Shown one piece after another: positions 28,727 through 37,909 of a stretch of DNA of 48,870 nt. The translations under genes and the position numbers were made by a program. Each line of letters starts with the position of its first letter. Position 1 is the stretch's first letter. The DNA is taken from positions 1-48,870 of the forward strand of contig JAFQBT010000019.1 of assembly GCA_017399625.1 (NCBI GenBank), given 5' to 3'. This stretch comes from Oscillospiraceae bacterium. Lineage in GTDB: Bacteria > Bacillota > Clostridia > Oscillospirales > Ruminococcaceae. The notes below the pieces were generated by a model. It saw nothing but the letters and a program-made list of their open reading frames with translations. It was not told where the DNA came from and made no database searches.

Positions 28727-31657
28727 ATGAGCGAAAATTTAAGACCGCTTTCGTTTGAAAAGCTGATGGGACTTCTTATTGAGGAGCATAACGCCACCGG
28801 CACAATTTTCGGCGTAAAGGATTTTTATAAAGCAGGAAGAGCAAGACTTCCCATCTTCGGAATGAGGATAGAAAATCCGGTTGGTCCTGCGGCGGGTCCC
28901 GTTACCCAGACTGCCCAGGGAATAATCGCCGCATATCTTTCCGGCGCAAGGTTCTTCGAACTCCGGACAGTTTTTCCGGATAACGAAAAATCCGGAAAAC
29001 CGGACGTTTCCGTCGGCGACAGAACTTTTTCCTCCGAACATCCTTCGGAACTTTCCGTTGCGGAAGCCTTCGGCGAATATGTAAAGGCATGGTACGCCAT
29101 AAAGCTCATCAGCACCGCTTTTGAACTGGGCGTTCCGGAAGGTTTTGTTTTCAATATGTCCGTGGGCGGAAGCCTTGAGGACCTTAAATCCGAAAAGATG
29201 AACAGCTTCATCGAAGGGCTTAAATCCGCGGAATATACTCCCGTCTGGCGTGAATGCGAAAACTGGGCAAGAGCTCATATGGATGAGCTGGACGGAATTG
29301 ACAACACCTATATTTCCGATATCAGCCCGAGGGTCTGCAATTCCGCTTTCTTTGTTCCTAAGGAAGGCCTTTCCGCTTCCGAAATCGAGGAAGCCGCGGC
29401 ATACCTCATCGAGGAAAAACGCCTCCATACCTTTGTAAAAATCAGCCCGGATCTTCTGGGTTATTATACCGTCCGGGGAATCCTTGATATCAACGGATAT
29501 GATGACGTTGAAATAAGCAAGGAAAAAATGGAAAGCGGCGCGCTTTATGATGATTTAAAACCCGCGTTCCTCCGTCTTCAGAACAAAGCGGATATGAAGC
29601 GCCTTGAATTCGGCGTAAAAGTCTGCGGCGGGCTCCGTGTTGAAAAAGCGAAGGAAACACCCATCAAGGACGGCAGACTTACCGGAAGAGCACTTTTCCC
29701 CATTGCATTTTCCCTTGCTGAAAAAATCGCAAACGATTTCGGCGGCGGTCTCAGAATCTGCTTTGCGGGCGGAGCGGATTATTTCACCGCATCAAAACTT
29801 TTCGATGCGGGAATCTGGCCGGTAACCGTTGTTTCCGATATCATAAGACCCGGCGGTCTCCGGAGATTCAAACAGCTTGCGGAGGACGTTTCAAAATGCG
29901 ATTACGCCCAGTTCTCCGGAATCCTCACTTCCGACCTTCCGGATATTGAAAAGGAAGTTTATTCCGGCGGAAGATATAAAAATATCCCCGGCGCAAAACC
30001 GAAAAAAGCCGAAGGACCCATTCCGCATATCAACTGCACGAAGGCACAGTGCCGTGCGGTCTGTCCCCTCGGAGCGGATATTCCACTCGTAATGCGCCTT
30101 ATCAAAAACGGCAGAAGCCTTGATGCTCTCCGTGTTATCTTCGAGCGCAACCCCATGCCCTTCACCGTTGAAACCCTTTGCAGCCATCCCTGCATGGACG
30201 GCTGCTCCAGAAGATTCTACGAATGTCCGCTGAATATCAAGGGCGAAAATTACCAGGCGGCGAAAAATGCCTGCTTCGATCTTCTTGATGAAACGGAGCT
30301 TAAATCCGGAGCGGGCGCAAAAATTGCTGTTGTCGGATGCGGACCTGCCGGACTTTCCACCGCCTGCTTCCTTGCAAGACAGGGCGCGAAGGTCACCATT
30401 TTCGATAAAGAATACCGTCCCGGCGGCGCTGTTACAAAATATATCCCCAAATTCCGCATTGATGATTCCGATATAGAATGGGACGCAACCCTTATCCAGG
30501 CTCTCGGAATCGAAATGGAGCTTGGCGTTGAGGTAACCTCCCTGCGTGAACTCCGGGAACAGGGATTTGAAAAAATCGTCCTCGCCATCGGAGCCGGAAA
30601 ACAGAAACATCTCAGGTTTGCCTTCGGCAAAAACGTTTCCGCCCTGGAGTTCCTCGAAAATTATAAACGCAATCCGGAGGAAACGGAAGAAACAGTTATG
30701 GGAAGCGTTGTTGTAATCGGCGGCGGACATACTGCGGTTACGGCGGCAAGATGCGCAAAAAAGCTCGCTTCCGTCGATAGAGTGACCCTTGTTTTCGATA
30801 AACCGGAAAGCGAAATGGATGCTTCCATGGACGAAATCCTCGCCATGAAGAAGGAAGGCATCTTCGTTGCACCGAATCTTATTCCAAGCGGAGTAAGGAG
30901 CGGACAGCTTCTCTGCCATGTTTCCGAACTTGGCGAACCGGACGAAAAAACAGGAATCAGACCGGTTATCGACACCGGCGCAAAGGATAAAATCCCTGCG
31001 GATTATGCAATCAACGCCACCGGAGAGGAAGTTGACGACGTTCTCTTCGATGAAATTGACAGCGCAACATATCTCGTCGGCAACGCGAACTTCGGAAAAA
31101 CCGAGGATATCGCAAAAGTTATTGCCGATTCCCAGCGCCTTTGCAAAAAAATCGCCCACAGCCATTTTGATAAATATGTTCCGGACAACGAAAACGAGGA
31201 TCGTTCCTTCCTTGAAAAACGCGGAAAACTCTGTGCAGACTGCAAAAAATGCGCCGAAGGCGAACGCTGCCTTGAATGCGACAGTGTCTGCGAATTCTGC
31301 GCGGAAGTTTGTCCCAACCGGGCAAACTGGGTGATAAAACTTTCCGACGGCAGCCGCCAGATCCTCCACGTGAACGATTTCTGCGACGGATGTGGAGCCT
31401 GCGCCGACAGCTGTCCCTATGACGGAAAACCGCATAAGGAAAAATTCACTCTGTTCCTCGATGAGGAGGATTTCAAAAAGAGCGAAAACGACGGATTCTA
31501 CGTAACCGGCGAAGCAAACAACTGCCGCTTCAGATACGAGGGAAAAGTCTTCAAATATGACCCGATAAACGGTCCGGTTGGCACGATTCCGGACGAAATC
31601 AGGGAGATGTGCGGTATAGTAATGAAGCGTTTTCCGCGGCTTCTGAAAGTCTGGTAA
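28727..31657 (+). CDS. YgfK-like iron-sulfur flavoprotein (putative selenate reductase subunit family)
   Basis: A 976-residue multidomain protein. Residues 1 to about 400 are a dihydroorotate-dehydrogenase-like barrel (NPVGPAAGPVTQTAQGI, VKVCGGLR). Residues about 435-520 form a GltD-like Cys-rich region (CTKAQCRAVCP, CSHPCMDGC). Residues about 530-820 hold two dinucleotide-binding folds (VVGCGPAGLSTAC for FAD, VVIGGGHTAVTAA for NAD(P)H). The C-terminus has CADCKKC, a Cys-rich cluster and CDGCGACADSCPYDG. The order matches YgfK, whose genes usually accompany molybdenum hydroxylases or hydantoinase and purine or selenium genes. None are present here. Its electron acceptor and substrate are unknown. 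Confidence 0.88.
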   Translation: MSENLRPLSFEKLMGLLIEEHNATGTIFGVKDFYKAGRARLPIFGMRIENPVGPAAGPVTQTAQGIIAAYLSGARFFELRTVFPDNEKSGKPDVSVGDRTFSSEHPSELSVAEAFGEYVKAWYAIKLISTAFELGVPEGFVFNMSVGGSLEDLKSEKMNSFIEGLKSAEYTPVWRECENWARAHMDELDGIDNTYISDISPRVCNSAFFVPKEGLSASEIEEAAAYLIEEKRLHTFVKISPDLLGYYTVRGILDINGYDDVEISKEKMESGALYDDLKPAFLRLQNKADMKRLEFGVKVCGGLRVEKAKETPIKDGRLTGRALFPIAFSLAEKIANDFGGGLRICFAGGADYFTASKLFDAGIWPVTVVSDIIRPGGLRRFKQLAEDVSKCDYAQFSGILTSDLPDIEKEVYSGGRYKNIPGAKPKKAEGPIPHINCTKAQCRAVCPLGADIPLVMRLIKNGRSLDALRVIFERNPMPFTVETLCSHPCMDGCSRRFYECPLNIKGENYQAAKNACFDLLDETELKSGAGAKIAVVGCGPAGLSTACFLARQGAKVTIFDKEYRPGGAVTKYIPKFRIDDSDIEWDATLIQALGIEMELGVEVTSLRELREQGFEKIVLAIGAGKQKHLRFAFGKNVSALEFLENYKRNPEETEETVMGSVVVIGGGHTAVTAARCAKKLASVDRVTLVFDKPESEMDASMDEILAMKKEGIFVAPNLIPSGVRSGQLLCHVSELGEPDEKTGIRPVIDTGAKDKIPADYAINATGEEVDDVLFDEIDSATYLVGNANFGKTEDIAKVIADSQRLCKKIAHSHFDKYVPDNENEDRSFLEKRGKLCADCKKCAEGERCLECDSVCEFCAEVCPNRANWVIKLSDGSRQILHVNDFCDGCGACADSCPYDGKPHKEKFTLFLDEEDFKKSENDGFYVTGEANNCRFRYEGKVFKYDPINGPVGTIPDEIREMCGIVMKRFPRLLKVW

Positions 31658-31903: not shown

Positions 31904-31933
31904 TTGACAACACTGTGAATTATACTGTATAAT
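31904..31933 (+). promoter_or_regulatory. Promoter of the PadR-rlmB unit
   Basis: Perfect TTGACA, 18 bases, perfect TATAAT. The direct repeat ACTGT...ACTGT sits in the spacer and could be a PadR site. It implies a leader of about 180 bases before the PadR start. Confidence 0.7.
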
Positions 31934-32120
31934 TTGGAATAGGTAAAAATATCCGGAAATCCGATCGGAAACGGGAAAGTTTTCGCCGGGAAATCGGCGG
32001 AAATTTCCGAAAAAACGGCGGATTTTATCTGTAAAAATGTAGATTTTTTGGGTTTTTAAAACCGCAAAAAACCGCATGAACAAGCCAAAAATCGTTACTA
32101 TAAAAAGGAGGTGGGGAAAA

Positions 32121-32456
32121 TTGAGCGATGACGAAATCATTTCCGGTTTTGTGTCGGAACTTCGCCGCGGAACTGTCGTTCTCGGCGTTCTGAATCAACT
32201 TTCCTCGCCAAAATATGGCTATTCCCTCGGTCAGGAACTGACCGAAAAAGGGGTCCCGGTGGACGGAAACACTCTCTATCCGCTGCTGCGCCGGCTTGAA
32301 AGCCAGGGTCTGCTGAAAAGCGAATGGGATATGTCCGAAGGAAAACCCCGAAAATATTATGTCCGTACCGCAAAAGGCTCGAAGATAAACGAACAGCTGC
32401 GTGATTACTGGATCGAAACCGTTGTGAATATTTCCACTTTGATGAAGGAAGAATAA
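32121..32456 (+). CDS. PadR-family transcriptional regulator
   Basis: A 111-residue winged-helix protein. Start chosen at TTG 32121, 8 bases after AAGGAGGTG; an upstream ATG at 32076 has no such site. RRGTVVLGVLNQLSSPKYGYSL, then GNTLYPLLRRLESQGLLKSEW and GKPRKYYVRT, are classic PadR helix-turn-helix and wing motifs. A C-terminal helix mediates dimerisation. It begins the unit that continues with the rRNA methyltransferase and may autoregulate. The stop is 3 bases from the next start. Confidence 0.9.
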   Translation: MSDDEIISGFVSELRRGTVVLGVLNQLSSPKYGYSLGQELTEKGVPVDGNTLYPLLRRLESQGLLKSEWDMSEGKPRKYYVRTAKGSKINEQLRDYWIETVVNISTLMKEE

Positions 32457-32459
32457 ATT

Positions 32460-33242
32460 ATGGAAAAATACAGAGAAAAAGAAGAAATCCGCGAAAACGA
32501 AGCGGATAAAGATAAAATCTGCGGCCGCAACGCGGTAATCGAAGCGATCAAATCCGGTAGAGAAATCGACCGCATTATGGTTGCAAAAGGCTCGACCAAC
32601 CTCGGCAAACTCTATGCAATGGCAAAGGAAGCCGGAATCCCGGTAAAGGAAGTTGCCCCGGTAAAAATCGAGGAACTTGCCGCAGGAGCAAATGCCCAGG
32701 GAGTTCTTGCAATGGCGGCGGCGCATAAATACGCCACCGTTGATGAAATTTTTGCCCTTGCGGAAGAACGGGGCGAACCTCCATTCATCATTATTGCTGA
32801 CGGACTTGAGGACGGACATAACCTTGGCGCAGTCATCAGAACTGCGGAATGCTGCGGAGCCCACGGAGTTATCATTCCGAAACGCAGAAGCGTCGGTCTC
32901 AACTACGTTGTTGCAAAAACTTCCGTAGGTGCGGTGGAATATGTTCCCGTTGCAAGGGTAACCAACATTGCCAGAACCATCGATGAACTCAAGGAACGCG
33001 GAGTATGGATTTTCGGCGCGGATATGGACGGCGAAGCACTCTGGTCCGCGGATCTTTCCGGATCCATCGGTCTTGTTCTCGGTGCGGAGGGCGAAGGAGT
33101 GAGCCGCCTTGTTAAAGAAAAATGCGATTTTGTTGTTTCTCTCCCGATGCGCGGCAAAATCGAATCCCTCAATGCTTCCGTTGCGGCTTCCGTAATGATG
33201 TATGAGGTAACAAGACAGCGCCTCGGAATCAAAGCAAGATAA
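32460..33242 (+). CDS. rlmB: SpoU/TrmH-family 23S rRNA 2'-O-methyltransferase (RlmB-like)
   Basis: A 260-residue protein with an N-terminal substrate-binding domain (residues about 20-95, ICGRNAVIEAIKSGREIDRI) and a knotted SpoU domain. Motif 1 is DGLEDGHNLGAVIRTAECCG with the catalytic Asn and Arg. Motif 2 is GLVLGAEGEGVS and motif 3 SLNASVAASVMMYE. The RNA target by family is guanosine 2251 of 23S rRNA, with S-adenosylmethionine as donor. It lies 3 bases after the PadR gene, an unusual partner. Confidence 0.92.
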   Translation: MEKYREKEEIRENEADKDKICGRNAVIEAIKSGREIDRIMVAKGSTNLGKLYAMAKEAGIPVKEVAPVKIEELAAGANAQGVLAMAAAHKYATVDEIFALAEERGEPPFIIIADGLEDGHNLGAVIRTAECCGAHGVIIPKRRSVGLNYVVAKTSVGAVEYVPVARVTNIARTIDELKERGVWIFGADMDGEALWSADLSGSIGLVLGAEGEGVSRLVKEKCDFVVSLPMRGKIESLNASVAASVMMYEVTRQRLGIKAR

Positions 33243-33280: not shown

Positions 33281-35797
33281 ATGGCAGGAAACGGATATTC
33301 GGTTGACGACATTCTTGAGGAAATCAGGCGCAAAAAAGAAAACGGCGCCGCTAAAGCAACCGATTCACAGATAAACAGCAATTCCAATTCGGGCGATTTT
33401 TTTGAGATGCGGCAGAAAAACACCCAGCCGGAGGAACCGAAGGAACCGGAGGTTCCCACATATACAAAAAAATTCAGCGACGAACCCATAACAACAAGAA
33501 CCATCCAGGTTGACGATACTCTTTCCCAGTATTTCGGTGCGGCAACATGGAAGAACGAAAAGAAATCCAAAAAGCAGAAGAGCGAAAGCATCTCCGCAAA
33601 AGTGAATACCGTTCCGGCGCACACCGCGGCTTCCGAAGCAAAGGAAAAAATAAACGGATTTGTGCCGAAGGATTTCACCATCCATACCGAAGAACAGCTC
33701 AGAGGTTTTGAACCGAAGCCGGAACCCAAAGAGGAACCAAAGCCGGAACCGAAGCCGGCTGAGGAAAAACCTGCGGAAAAGATTCCGGAAAACAGCGGAA
33801 TAGTCGGTTTCGGAGCCGCAAGGGAAGAAAAGGAAAAAACCGACCTCACCAGTTCCGGAAACCACGACCTTTATAAGGAATTTGTTGAAAAACGCCACGA
33901 TAAAGTTGCGGAATTTATGCGGAACGTTGCGGAGCCCACGGATCAGGAGATACATATCCCCGAAATTCCGGCTCAGGAACCGGTCAGAAATAAATTTTCC
34001 GACCAGAGCAACGAGGATATCGCAAAAAAACTCATGCAGGATATGCACGAACCGGAGGATGACGATCCGGACGATTACGAAGCCGAATCCCAGAAGGAAG
34101 CGGTTGAAAAGAACCTTTCCGCACAGCTCACAGGTCTTATTATTAGGGCGGTCATCATCTTCGTGCTCCTTGTTGCAAGCCTTGCGTTCTGTCTTTCTCC
34201 GATGCTTGGCTATGAACTTCCGGAAGCGGTTTCCTTCGCGGATTCCGGAATAATCTTCCCGATAATCAACCTTGCAATCGTCTGCGTTGCGGCGCTTACA
34301 TGTCACGTTGCGGTCGGCGGAGGACTTCTTTCCCTCGTAAGATTCAAAGCGGGAAACGATACCTTTGCAACCTGCTCCGTAATCGGAGCGGCGGCTCTTG
34401 GCGTTGCATTCATTGCGGATCCTTCTGCAATGTCCCCGGGCGGAGAAAATCTTTTCTTCCCCATCACAATTCTCGGACTTTTCTTCAACACCATAGGAAA
34501 AATCCTTTCCGCCGCAAGAATCAGAAAGAACTTTGATGTTCTCACCACGGGAAAAGGAAAATCCGCGCTTCTTCCGGTAAGGAACAAGGAACTTGCAAGA
34601 GAGCTTACCGGACAGAGGGACGAAACACCACGCTTCTGCACCAGCGCAAAAGCAAAATTCTTCACCAGATTCCTTGAACTTTCCTATCGGGACGACGCCA
34701 CCGAAAGCATTGCAAGAATCGTTGCACCGATCGTTTTCCTCTGCTCGATTCTCGTCGGCGTGATCGCGTTCCTTCTCACCGGAAGAGTTTCCGATGCAAT
34801 AACCGGATTTGCCGCAGTGCTCTGCGTTGCATCTCCTTTCTCCGCAACCATTGCGGGTGCCCTTCCGGTATATCGTTCCTGCGCCGCCCTCAATGAAGAG
34901 GGAAGCGTTATGGCAGGCGGTTATACCGCGGAAACCTTTGCGGAAACCGATTCCGTGCTCCTTGATATTGAACAGCTTTTCCCCGAAGGCAGCATTATCC
35001 TCCACGGAATCAAAACCTTTGCCCAGGGCAGAATCGACGAAGCAATCCTTGATGCGGCTTCCGTAATCTGCAGCACCAGAAGCACCCTCGGAAGCATCTT
35101 CATCAACGTTGTTCAGGGAGATAAAAAACTCCTCAAGCCGGTTGATACCATCATCTATGAGGACGGAATGGGACTTTCCGCCTGGGTTGGCGGAAAGCGC
35201 GTTCTCATCGGAAACCGCGAACTTATGATCAACCACGGAATCGATATTCCTTCCCATGATTATGAAAACAAATATGTCGGCAGCGGCAAGGATATTCTTT
35301 ATCTCGCCAACAGCGGCGAACTTACCGCTATGTTTGTTCTCAGCTATCATGCGGACAGAGAAGTTTATCATTCCCTCGGAATCATGGCGGAAAGAGGCGT
35401 TCGCCTTGTTATCAACTGCAGTGACCCCAACATCACAGTAAAGAAGCTCTGTGACCTTTTCGGATATCCGAAGAGCCAGCTTAATCTTCTTTCTTCCAAA
35501 TATCAGCAGAAATGCGCGGAACTTACCGAAGAAAGAGAAACCGCTCCCGCTGCGGCAGTTTATAACGGAAGCCTTTATGCCCTTTCCGATCTCCTCAATT
35601 GCTGCGGAATAATCCGCCAGTCCTCCTTTGCGGCGGCGCTTATTGAAATGATCGGAATAATCCTCGGTTTTGTTCTTGTAACCCTTTTCCTCTTCACGGG
35701 AAATATCCGAAGCCTTACAATGTATGTTCTTGCGGCGTTCCAGATGTTCTGGTTTGTTGCGGTAACCCTTGTTATCATGCTTCGCAAAAAAATCTGA
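33281..35797 (+). CDS. Degenerate P-type ATPase-like membrane protein with disordered N-terminus
   Basis: An 838-residue protein. Residues 1 to about 280 are charged and disordered, starting YSVDDILEEIRRKK, with a Pro/Glu/Lys repeat region at 145-165. From residue 283 the membrane part follows the layout of P1B-type ATPases: pairs of hydrophobic helices, then LNEEGSVMAGGYTAETFAETDSVLLD. This aligns with the segment before the phosphorylation site, but DKTGT is replaced by DIEQL (residues 562-566; codon 34964). GKRVLIGNRELM and SGKDILYLANSGEL keep the shape of the nucleotide-binding domain, while the hinge TGDxxxxA reads NCSDPNITV. The metal-site CPC is replaced by CVASPF. It therefore cannot form the usual aspartyl phosphate intermediate and is probably a pseudo-ATPase. 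The pseudokinase gene follows. Confidence 0.82.
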   Translation: MAGNGYSVDDILEEIRRKKENGAAKATDSQINSNSNSGDFFEMRQKNTQPEEPKEPEVPTYTKKFSDEPITTRTIQVDDTLSQYFGAATWKNEKKSKKQKSESISAKVNTVPAHTAASEAKEKINGFVPKDFTIHTEEQLRGFEPKPEPKEEPKPEPKPAEEKPAEKIPENSGIVGFGAAREEKEKTDLTSSGNHDLYKEFVEKRHDKVAEFMRNVAEPTDQEIHIPEIPAQEPVRNKFSDQSNEDIAKKLMQDMHEPEDDDPDDYEAESQKEAVEKNLSAQLTGLIIRAVIIFVLLVASLAFCLSPMLGYELPEAVSFADSGIIFPIINLAIVCVAALTCHVAVGGGLLSLVRFKAGNDTFATCSVIGAAALGVAFIADPSAMSPGGENLFFPITILGLFFNTIGKILSAARIRKNFDVLTTGKGKSALLPVRNKELARELTGQRDETPRFCTSAKAKFFTRFLELSYRDDATESIARIVAPIVFLCSILVGVIAFLLTGRVSDAITGFAAVLCVASPFSATIAGALPVYRSCAALNEEGSVMAGGYTAETFAETDSVLLDIEQLFPEGSIILHGIKTFAQGRIDEAILDAASVICSTRSTLGSIFINVVQGDKKLLKPVDTIIYEDGMGLSAWVGGKRVLIGNRELMINHGIDIPSHDYENKYVGSGKDILYLANSGELTAMFVLSYHADREVYHSLGIMAERGVRLVINCSDPNITVKKLCDLFGYPKSQLNLLSSKYQQKCAELTEERETAPAAAVYNGSLYALSDLLNCCGIIRQSSFAAALIEMIGIILGFVLVTLFLFTGNIRSLTMYVLAAFQMFWFVAVTLVIMLRKKI

Positions 35798-35846: not shown

Positions 35847-35877
35847 AAAACTCCGTTACTGAGCAGTAACGGAGTTT
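35847..35877 (+). terminator. Rho-independent terminator
   Basis: Stem AAACTCCGTTACTG/CAGTAACGGAGTTT with an AG-type loop after the ATPase-like gene. The T run is short. Confidence 0.75.
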
Positions 35878-35904
35878 TATCGTTTTATGGGGAAAGACCC
35901 CATT

Positions 35905-36104: not shown

Positions 36105-36187
36105 ATATTGTGAATAAATATGTTCTTTGATATTAACGCAAAAGCGTAAGCATATATAAAGTTCTCATGAAAAAGGAGGTAGCTGCT

Positions 36188-37909
36188 TTGCTTACAGATG
36201 AACGCAGTCTTTGCATGGGCTGCATGTCCGTGCTTGATGAAAACGGAAAATGCCGCTGCGGATACGACGAAAATGCGCTTACGGACGAAGAGTGCATCCC
36301 CGCAGGAACAGTTGTCGGCGAAAAATATATCGTCGGAAAAATGATCAGAAAAAACGGCGAAAGCATTACATATATCGGTTTTGATAAAGAAAACGAGGAA
36401 AAGGTTTTTGTTCAGGAATATATGCCCGGAAGCCTTGCAAAACGAAGCGACCTTACCGGTGAAGTTGTTCCTTTTTCCGGATACGAGGCACAGTATAAAA
36501 CCCTCATGGCGGATTTTTACGATCTTTTTGATGCCCTCCGCAATTTCCGTCATAAGGATTACCTTATGCCCGTAACAAATGTTTTCCGGGAAAACAACAC
36601 CGTCTATGCAGTTTATAAATATATAAAGACCATTTCCTATGGGGATTATCTTTCCCATAACGGCGGCGAATTTACCTGGCCCCAGGTAAAAAAGCTTTTT
36701 ATGCCCCTTTTCACAACTATAACCTATCTCCACAGCAACGGTTTTGTCCATAGGGGAATTTCGCCGGAAAGCATCCGGGTCAACGCAAAAGGACAGCTCC
36801 TTCTCTGCGGATTCGGAACGGCGGCGCTTTATTCCAAACATTCCCTTGTTGAACCGGATCTTTCCGCAGGCTATTCCGCCCCGGAACAGTATTCAACCGG
36901 TTCCTGGCAGGGCGAATGGACCGACGTTTATTCCGTTGCGGCGGTGCTTTATAAATCTCTCACCGGAACCCTTCCGGCGGATGCGGAATCCAGAAAAGAC
37001 GTTGATCATCTTTGCCCTCCGGAGGAACTCAACAACAATATTTCCTCCGAAGTTTCGGATGCAATCATGAATGCCATGACCCTCAGCAGCGAATACCGAA
37101 CCCGTTCCATCGATGACCTCACTGCGGAACTTCTTGAATCCGCAGGTTCCAACACAAAGCTTTTTGTTGCTCCGGCGGAAGCGGAAATCAGGAAAACCGA
37201 AGAAGAATATTTCCCCGGCGAGGAAACCGAACATGAGGAAAAAAGAAAAGTCCGGCTTCCCTGGGGATTCATCGCAACACTTATCGCAATGGCGGTTCTT
37301 CTCGGAATGGTGGGCTTCCTTTTCCGGTTCACCGAGATTCTCGGCTTTGGAAACCGCAGGGATCCGGATAATTCCGTTTCCGAAAACAGCGGCGAGGACA
37401 TTCCGGATGCACCGGGCTATGCTCTTGTTGTTCCGAACTTCGTCGGAAGAATGAAAACCGACGTTGACGGCAACAGCCAGTATGAGGATTTCAACCTTGT
37501 TTTCGAGGAAGAAAACAACAACGAATACGTTGCCGGAATGATTTTTGACCAGTCGGTAAAATATAAAACCGAGGTGGAAAAAGGAACCACCGTTGTTCTT
37601 AAAGTCAGCAAAGGTCCGGAAAAAATCCCGATGCCGAACTGCATCGGCAGAAGCATTGAGGAAGTTTCCGCAATGCTCAATGAAATGCAGATAAACTATC
37701 AGCTTATTCCGAACTTCAGCGCACAGTATGAATATAACGTGGTCTATGACCAGTCCGTTGAGGAAGGCACCGAAGTTGCCGTTGGCGACAGAGCGGAAAA
37801 AATCTATATCTATTACGGCGCGCTTGAAGAAGGCAACAGCGGAAGCGGAAGCGGAAGCAGCGGAGGAAGCGGCGACGAAGAAGGCAGAAAACCCATTAAA
37901 TTCGGTTGA
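36188..37909 (+). CDS. Membrane PASTA-domain pseudokinase with zinc-ribbon N-terminus
   Basis: A 573-residue protein. Start chosen at TTG 36188, 7 bases after AAAGGAGGT; the ATG at 36167 overlaps that site. Order: a four-Cys ribbon (CMGCM...CRCG), a protein kinase fold (residues about 40-320), a TM helix (about 355-375), and two PASTA-like repeats with a Gly/Ser-rich tail. Kinase landmarks keep their place but not their residues. The VAIKEYFP-type motif reads VFVQEYMP (Lys to Gln76). HRD reads HRG (residues 188-190), the catalytic-loop Asn position is Ser195, and DFG reads GFG (208-210). The Gly-rich loop is also altered. YSAPEQY is kept. It should be unable to phosphorylate, but could sense muropeptides through PASTA and signal allosterically. 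Confidence 0.88.
   Translation: MLTDERSLCMGCMSVLDENGKCRCGYDENALTDEECIPAGTVVGEKYIVGKMIRKNGESITYIGFDKENEEKVFVQEYMPGSLAKRSDLTGEVVPFSGYEAQYKTLMADFYDLFDALRNFRHKDYLMPVTNVFRENNTVYAVYKYIKTISYGDYLSHNGGEFTWPQVKKLFMPLFTTITYLHSNGFVHRGISPESIRVNAKGQLLLCGFGTAALYSKHSLVEPDLSAGYSAPEQYSTGSWQGEWTDVYSVAAVLYKSLTGTLPADAESRKDVDHLCPPEELNNNISSEVSDAIMNAMTLSSEYRTRSIDDLTAELLESAGSNTKLFVAPAEAEIRKTEEEYFPGEETEHEEKRKVRLPWGFIATLIAMAVLLGMVGFLFRFTEILGFGNRRDPDNSVSENSGEDIPDAPGYALVVPNFVGRMKTDVDGNSQYEDFNLVFEEENNNEYVAGMIFDQSVKYKTEVEKGTTVVLKVSKGPEKIPMPNCIGRSIEEVSAMLNEMQINYQLIPNFSAQYEYNVVYDQSVEEGTEVAVGDRAEKIYIYYGALEEGNSGSGSGSSGGSGDEEGRKPIKFG

Follow-up and report, generated by a model that had tools for sequence, protein, structure and literature searches.

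What remains of an ion pump once the residues that made it pump are gone, and to what use might a bacterium put the remainder? The question is posed by a 48,870-nucleotide stretch of DNA from an Oscillospiraceae bacterium (NCBI GenBank assembly GCA_017399625.1, contig JAFQBT010000019.1, positions 1 to 48,870 of the forward strand), hereafter the window, in which an open reading frame (ORF) of 838 amino acids encodes a protein that we call a pseudo-pump. A sequence-only reading of this DNA, made without database searches, had quoted stretches of the protein, which are present in the ORF at 33281-35797 (+), and had proposed a conserved, non-pumping ATPase relative with a long disordered arm. Judged by its own sequence and those of its homologues, the protein is near certainly a non-pumping relative of the P1B metal-transporting ATPases: it is homologous to enzymes, lacks their catalytic residues and is conserved by selection, the marks of a pseudoenzyme. 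As to what it does, we lean, if modestly, towards a P1B-derived pseudo-pump that would work as a membrane-anchored adaptor, a recognition module joined to a long arm with a docking motif at its end. The gene and its parts are as follows.

33281..35797, + strand: pseudo-P1B-ATPase gene, ATG at 33281 to stop at 35797, 838 amino acids
33281..33340, + strand: N-terminal motif YSVDDILEEIRRKK, proposed docking peptide (within residues 1-20)
33341..34129, + strand: charged, apparently disordered arm (residues 21-283), probably cytoplasmic (composition and length over 138 arms)
34130..34516, + strand: first membrane block, about residues 284-412, equivalent to MA, MB, M1 and M2 (family-averaged hydropathy, hhalign)
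34517..34720, + strand: short loop at the site of the actuator (A) domain, residues 413-480, half the length of the loop of true pumps
34721..34879, + strand: M3-M4 pair, residues 481-533, in which CPC has become SPF (alignment, hydropathy)
34880..35620, + strand: soluble P/N remnant, residues 534-780, from which the GDGxND segment is missing; of the long regions, the most constrained
34964..34978, + strand: the DKTGT position (residues 562-566), reading DIEQL and running into the family's own LFPxG motif
35621..35794, + strand: C-terminal transmembrane pair, equivalent to M5-M6 (hydropathy, hhalign)

Kinship with the P1B pumps and the loss of catalytic motifs

The P1B layout claimed in the sequence-only reading is borne out by single-sequence and profile matches alike. 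The window protein alone matches the NCBIfam model TIGR01525 over residues 475-749 (E 7.1e-15; 54.9 bits, short of the family cut-off of 346.25) and, among PDB sequences, the copper ATPase 3rfu (E 8.8e-7). A 36-row profile of the family's cores finds 3rfu at E 2e-34, and in the same search the first helices give a weak separate match, with their order kept, at an independent E of 0.099. Profile-profile alignment (hhalign) against 16 true P1B pumps extends over 535 columns (Prob 99.9, E 1.4e-36), spanning the first through the last helix pair and remaining collinear over the membrane and P/N core; together with hydropathy it recovers the P1B helix layout and split P domain, the fourth helix of the first membrane block being weak in the family average. 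A match to a different fold was looked for in the profile searches and none appeared, P1B ATPases being returned instead. General domain libraries see far less: a Pfam scan of the window protein returned zero families at E 0.1, and a scan of 36 family members returned PF00702 alone, in five, at E 0.0018 at best, while 27 and 29 of the 36 match TIGR01525 and the CopA model PRK10671, respectively, at E 0.01 or better. With no Pfam match and a score far below pump cut-offs, automatic annotation would probably call the protein hypothetical or take it wrongly for a metal pump. The window protein has no match in PHROGs, and the idea of a phage relative was dropped.

An unrooted tree (276 columns, drawn with a midpoint root) sets 17 family members apart from 30 true P-type ATPases at 100% ultrafast bootstrap, and the internal branch between the two groups measures 1.49 substitutions per site. 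This split fits one loss of function followed by long constraint; no parent subtype within P1B can be named from the tree, the family branch being too long. Among P-type ATPases that keep DKTGT, one (L242, on contig C32 of genome G049) reads FSC at the expected CPC and has no SxHP.

How much has been lost was counted mainly in 55 aligned homologues set beside six true pumps from related genomes, and in a wider set of 143 members, amounting to 123 distinct cores, that was pattern-searched and added to the family alignment. Fifteen of the 55 rows come from the window's genus, partial or broken rows were retained, and the counts are phylogenetically non-independent; a smaller alignment, A1, holds 36 of the 55, with only the window protein (L001) and L015 from the genus and with L037, L043, L057, L058, L065 and L068, some of them fragments, left out by choice. 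In a P-type pump the phosphorylated Asp sits in DKTGT and the phosphatase motif of the A domain carries a Glu, as excerpts of PMC10654040 describe. All six reference pumps in the alignment have DKTGT; not one of the 55 rows or 123 cores does, and the window protein reads DIEQL there, just as had been claimed. At the TGES site of the A domain the Glu is gapped in 54 of 55 rows and replaced by Asp in one, and the M2-M3 loop that should carry it (query residues 412-480) has a family median of 69 residues (range 57-81) against 135-137 in the six true pumps; a TGEP string lies inside the shortened loop of one core (L043) and a TGEA string elsewhere in another (L064). The absence of the metal-binding CPC was also correctly read: CPC or CPH occurs in 0/55 rows, the Pro alone being kept (46/55, with the first Cys in 3/55; SPF in the window protein), and [SCT]P[CHS] near the metal site in 0/123 cores, stray strings lying away from it. 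The N-domain His is found in 0/55 rows and the N-domain Pro in only 13, while the GDGxND columns are gapped in all 55 and the pattern is missing from all 123 cores. The claim that the TGD hinge reads NCSD holds in part, since NCSD does sit on the hinge and TG is lost, but the hinge Asp itself is kept (52/55 rows, 118/123 cores); stray TGD strings in the cores lie away from the hinge site. The losses of the TGES loop and of GDGxND go beyond what the first reading had noticed.

With DKTGT, the A-domain Glu, GDGxND and other motifs gone, the family is left without any known basis for a P-type phosphorylation cycle, and the expectation that the protein should not pump is supported by the missing DKTGT, TGES, CPC, N-domain His and GDGxND. 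A divergent working pump is rejected on the counts in rows and cores. A cryptic active ATPase, its nucleophile shifted to another acidic residue near LFPxG, the family's own motif at the former phosphorylation site, is a subtler proposal that we regard as very improbable. An acidic residue, Asp or Glu, occupies column 565, immediately before LFP, in 94 of 123 cores, while the column of the DKTGT Asp (562) holds Asp in 25/55 rows and 53/123 cores; yet column 565 is Gln in the window protein and its genus (Glu in one copy), and outside the genus no more than 10 of 40 rows have Asp in column 562. Since GDGxND is deleted and the TGES site lost, Mg-supported phosphorylation and dephosphorylation would moreover have no known basis.

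Might the helices have outlived the engine as a transporter or channel freed from ATP use, or as a membrane subunit of one? The retained P1B helix layout and the persistent Pro of CPC speak for it, but with the metal site gone and its first Cys so rarely kept we think it improbable. Inside the hydropathy-defined helices none of the conserved polar positions carries a charge (P483, P519, G796, Q821 and W824 are examples, and Arg289 sits at a helix edge), which makes ion transport a weak reading of these sequences, and the C-terminal transmembrane pair has the highest ratio of non-synonymous to synonymous substitution rates (dN/dS) of six regions compared (0.146).

What has been kept lies elsewhere. 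The most conserved columns fall mainly in the P/N remnant (G631, G644, D715, F607, F685 and A593), with further ones, G348 and W824 among them, in the membrane part. Every row and core has Gly644 of the GN pair, the second Gly of GxG is kept in 54/55 rows and Gly631 in 122/123 cores, and the VLIGNRE of the window protein is identical to that of the copper transporter 7si3. These residues, in the most constrained long region of the protein, speak for a nucleotide or small-ligand sensor, whose N-domain cradle would still bind without hydrolysis and whose arm would relay the signal. With part of the nucleotide cradle still in place, this is the strongest rival to an adaptor, though we hold it unlikely. 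In human ATP7B, ATP binding involves the His of the N domain and the first Gly of GxG; in the family the former is lost from all 55 rows and the latter from 22, surviving in 33.

Set beside the P1B heavy-metal ATPases (CopA, ZntA/CadA; TIGR01525), then, the pseudo-pump shares the order of helices, M3-M4 followed by a split P domain with an inserted N domain, the second Gly of GxG, the GN region, the hinge Asp and the terminal helix pair. Unlike them, it lacks DKTGT, TGES, CPC, the N-domain His and GDGxND at their sites, its A domain is mostly gone, and a long disordered arm replaces the metal-binding domains.

Purifying selection and distribution

The gene is under strong purifying selection and is not decaying. 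Median dN/dS between the window and 13 genus copies (L015 excluded) is 0.041 in the P/N remnant, 0.054 in M3-M4, 0.094 in the first membrane block and loop, and 0.139 in the arm, below the figure already given for the last helix pair. Residues 1-20 show a dN/dS of 0, with a median proportion of non-synonymous differences (pN) of 0 and of synonymous differences (pS) of 0.50 within the genus. A decaying pump gene, an assembly fault or a wrongly chosen strand is the least probable explanation of all. An antisense ORF of 668 amino acids (window 33365-35371, minus strand) does overlap the gene, and its frame is open for at least 630 codons in 8 of 15 genus copies, with one to six stops in each of the 15; it is likely to be caused by codon use. 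The plus frame, however, is open in homologues across the order with low dN/dS, and it is the frame that matches known pumps; the selection and match tests covered the plus frame. Two homologues look broken (L022/L037 and L058; an internal stop and a split frame), both in draft assemblies where sequencing error is possible.

The gene is nearly universal in one order of bacteria and, in the samples searched, restricted to it. A first search of 61 related genomes gave a match at E 0.001 in all 61, the weakest best matches of which may be ordinary pumps. With the family profile, 241 of 247 genomes of the order have a strong homologue (best E 7.2e-58 or better; a hand count of best E-values, with model coverage given for the best rows, where it spans nearly the whole model). 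The other six (G062, G092, G149, G114, G126 and G246) score between 4.3e-17 and 7.0e-33, no better than ordinary pumps; in G062 the contig ends inside a gene whose start, FSVEDILAEF, shows the family's N-terminal motif. Across a phylum sample of 299, four genomes, all from this order, match along almost the full length of the model; the remaining 295 give 4.6e-38 at best, at about model positions 204-499 in the rows listed, like ordinary pumps. From a class sample of 196, nine match at 1e-45, all from the order, and none of the 20 listed among the 187 without a match belongs to it. The named loci include Anaerotruncus colihominis, Acetanaerobacterium elongatum, Merdimmobilis hominis and many 'Oscillospiraceae' assemblies, from which the host order is apparently Oscillospirales; the NCBI taxonomy places A. 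colihominis in Oscillospiraceae, order Eubacteriales. Neither result that would have refuted the sequence-only reading, another fold or orthologues that keep DKTGT, was found, and its description of a conserved, non-pumping ATPase relative with a long disordered arm therefore stands.

The arm and a membrane-anchored adaptor

The N-terminus of about 280 residues that the sequence-only reading described as disordered is there: read by eye, the first 283 residues of the window protein are charged and of low complexity. Where the arm is readable, in 138 homologues, it runs to between 98 and 1069 residues (median 274), five of the 143 members, with arms shorter than 30 residues, having been dropped from the length set, and some arms being cut by contig ends. 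Over all 143 arms the composition is 14% Glu, 10% Pro, 9% Lys and 0.1% Cys, acidic on balance (D+E 21%, K+R 15%). Four helices lie between the arm and the M2-M3 loop, so that by P-type topology the arm would be cytoplasmic, as the P/N part is. P1B pumps carry N-terminal tails of metal-binding domains, and the arm resembles these in being a cytosolic extension before the first helix; it differs in its near lack of Cys and in the absence of any Pfam domain from the window protein and from four long homologues, in which a fused domain was sought.

Towards the tip of the arm, among its first 60 residues, 105 of 138 homologues carry a strict motif, [VILA][DE][DE][ILM][LIM]x[ED], where shuffles predict 0.2, an excess that kinship among the homologues inflates. 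As a codon pattern, V-D-D-I-[LF]-x-E matches once in the window's genome, in the pseudo-pump gene itself; the looser D-[DE]-I-[LF]-x-E has 49 matches in five genomes, and four of the 30 inspected are this gene's N-terminus. The idea of a tag common to many proteins was rejected on the single match to the strict pattern in the window's genome, a check that covers the uniqueness of the motif only in part. A second arm motif, YYGLxLKxxEEY, is found in one family of the order (the arms of L034, L214, L215 and L217), and its codon pattern YYGLxLK has a single match in each of five genomes of one family, always in this gene's arm; besides it, the best arm-to-arm matches are mostly rich in Pro, Glu and Lys.

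In the adaptor that we favour, the helices would fix the pseudo-pump in the membrane, the conserved P/N remnant would offer a recognition surface, possibly still responsive to a ligand, and the disordered cytoplasmic arm would act as a tether, capturing a soluble partner through the conserved motif at its N-terminus and keeping it close to the membrane. The earlier suggestion of a membrane scaffold or sensor may reasonably be drawn from the sequences. Bolder, and to our minds a shade short of an even chance, is the proposal of an order-wide core protein, an ion pump dismantled once and rebuilt as a membrane hub, whose arm would reel a soluble partner from the division, envelope or translation machinery to the membrane while the P/N remnant gates by ligand or protein binding. 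Several findings pull against the adaptor. The strict motif is absent from 33 of 138 arms, many of which show looser forms as judged by eye, and docking by motif may not be universal; arm length varies tenfold; and a few other matches to the looser codon pattern lie near possible alternative ORF starts (e.g. L106, L107 and L111). The kept second Gly of GxG, Gly644 and hinge Asp fit a ligand sensor equally well, and the link to rlmB, the methyltransferase gene next upstream, may be only a chromosomal habit.

Since nearly every sampled member of this gut-associated order carries the gene, its function is likely to be central to the cell biology of the order, and the family makes testable what a pump scaffold does without pumping. 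If the bolder proposal is true, it would be a bacterial P-type ATPase pseudoenzyme family serving as a membrane hub. Pseudoenzymes are well known among kinases. Among the best-ranked matches for broad queries of the open-access literature, we found neither a named bacterial P-type ATPase pseudoenzyme nor a description of this family, many subscription papers lying outside that search. The nearest precedent found is Plasmodium guanylate cyclase beta, which, as excerpts of PMC6592433 present it, has a degenerate P4-ATPase domain; that protein is eukaryotic, of P4 type and fused to a cyclase, whereas the pseudo-pump is bacterial, of P1B type and stand-alone, with a disordered arm.

The rlmB pairing and the surrounding locus

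Two features that the first reading had not mentioned, near-universality in one order and the presence of rlmB upstream in most loci, raise the question of whether the neighbours say anything about function. In the window the relevant features are these.

31904..31933, + strand: promoter-like site TTGACA-18-TATAAT, 12/12 consensus positions (consensus match only)
32076..32456, + strand: PadR-family regulator, first gene of the presumed unit (PF03551, E 9.9e-16)
32460..33242, + strand: rlmB, 23S rRNA (guanosine2251-2'-O)-methyltransferase (TIGR00186, 235 bits against a cut-off of 160.15)
35847..35878, + strand: terminator-like hairpin, 14 pairs, 49 bases past the pseudo-pump stop (consensus match only)

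Of 80 named loci, a set that includes apparent repeats of the same genomes and is phylogenetically non-independent, 75 have an rlmB match upstream in the same orientation. From the end of that match to the open frame of the pseudo-pump is at most 122 bases in 73 of the 75, and 617 and 639 bases in the other two; in the window 38 bases separate the rlmB stop from the ATG. The pairing would be explained if the protein were a membrane tether for the translation machinery, working with RlmB or with ribosomes, which we consider rather unlikely. Of the six genomes of the order that score no better than ordinary pumps, five give no close rlmB match either (none better than E 1.1e-18), while the sixth, G062, has rlmB followed by the gene that is cut by the contig end. 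Such joint absence could also reflect one unassembled locus. Three of the five named loci without an upstream rlmB start inside the gene and one has just 57 bases upstream, but the fifth, L135, shows no rlmB match at E 1e-20 although 3.5 kb of upstream sequence is present. Outside the order rlmB occurs without the pseudo-pump, and the acidic arm is unlike RNA-binding tails.

In six genomes from outside the order the position behind rlmB was read: four (L206-L209; for three of these the assignment comes from the first 90 residues) have a SigH-like gene there, either immediately or with one gene in between, and two do not. A SigH query at E 1e-20 found a match in 11 of 41 relatives and in one of 15 genomes of the window's genus. 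As a side observation, the slot after rlmB may have been vacated by a SigH-like gene in the order.

The perfect promoter-like site before padR and the terminator-like hairpin after the pseudo-pump gene suggest that padR, rlmB and the pseudo-pump gene could form a single transcription unit, the same consensus scan having returned nine promoter-like sites against 5.1 expected and 15 terminator-like ones against 7.2. A Shine-Dalgarno-like GGAAGGGG stands immediately 5' of the pseudo-pump ATG.

Beyond the hairpin, the next gene (36167-37909, plus strand) encodes a homologue of PASTA kinases that bears a CxxC...CxC segment at its N-terminus. Kinases carry motifs named HRD and DFG; here the HRD site is HRG in all four genus copies read, and the DFG site is GFG in three and EFG in one, so that the protein downstream of the pseudo-pump itself looks like a pseudokinase. 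Membership of the pseudo-pump in a PASTA-kinase locus was considered and rejected: the kinase-like gene clusters in four loci, all from the window's genus and one of them (L071) with the gene in the opposite orientation, and rlmB is the regular neighbour. Further upstream, 28727-31657 (plus strand) encodes a YgfK-like putative selenate reductase subunit that scores 818.3 bits, just below the 835.3-bit cut-off.

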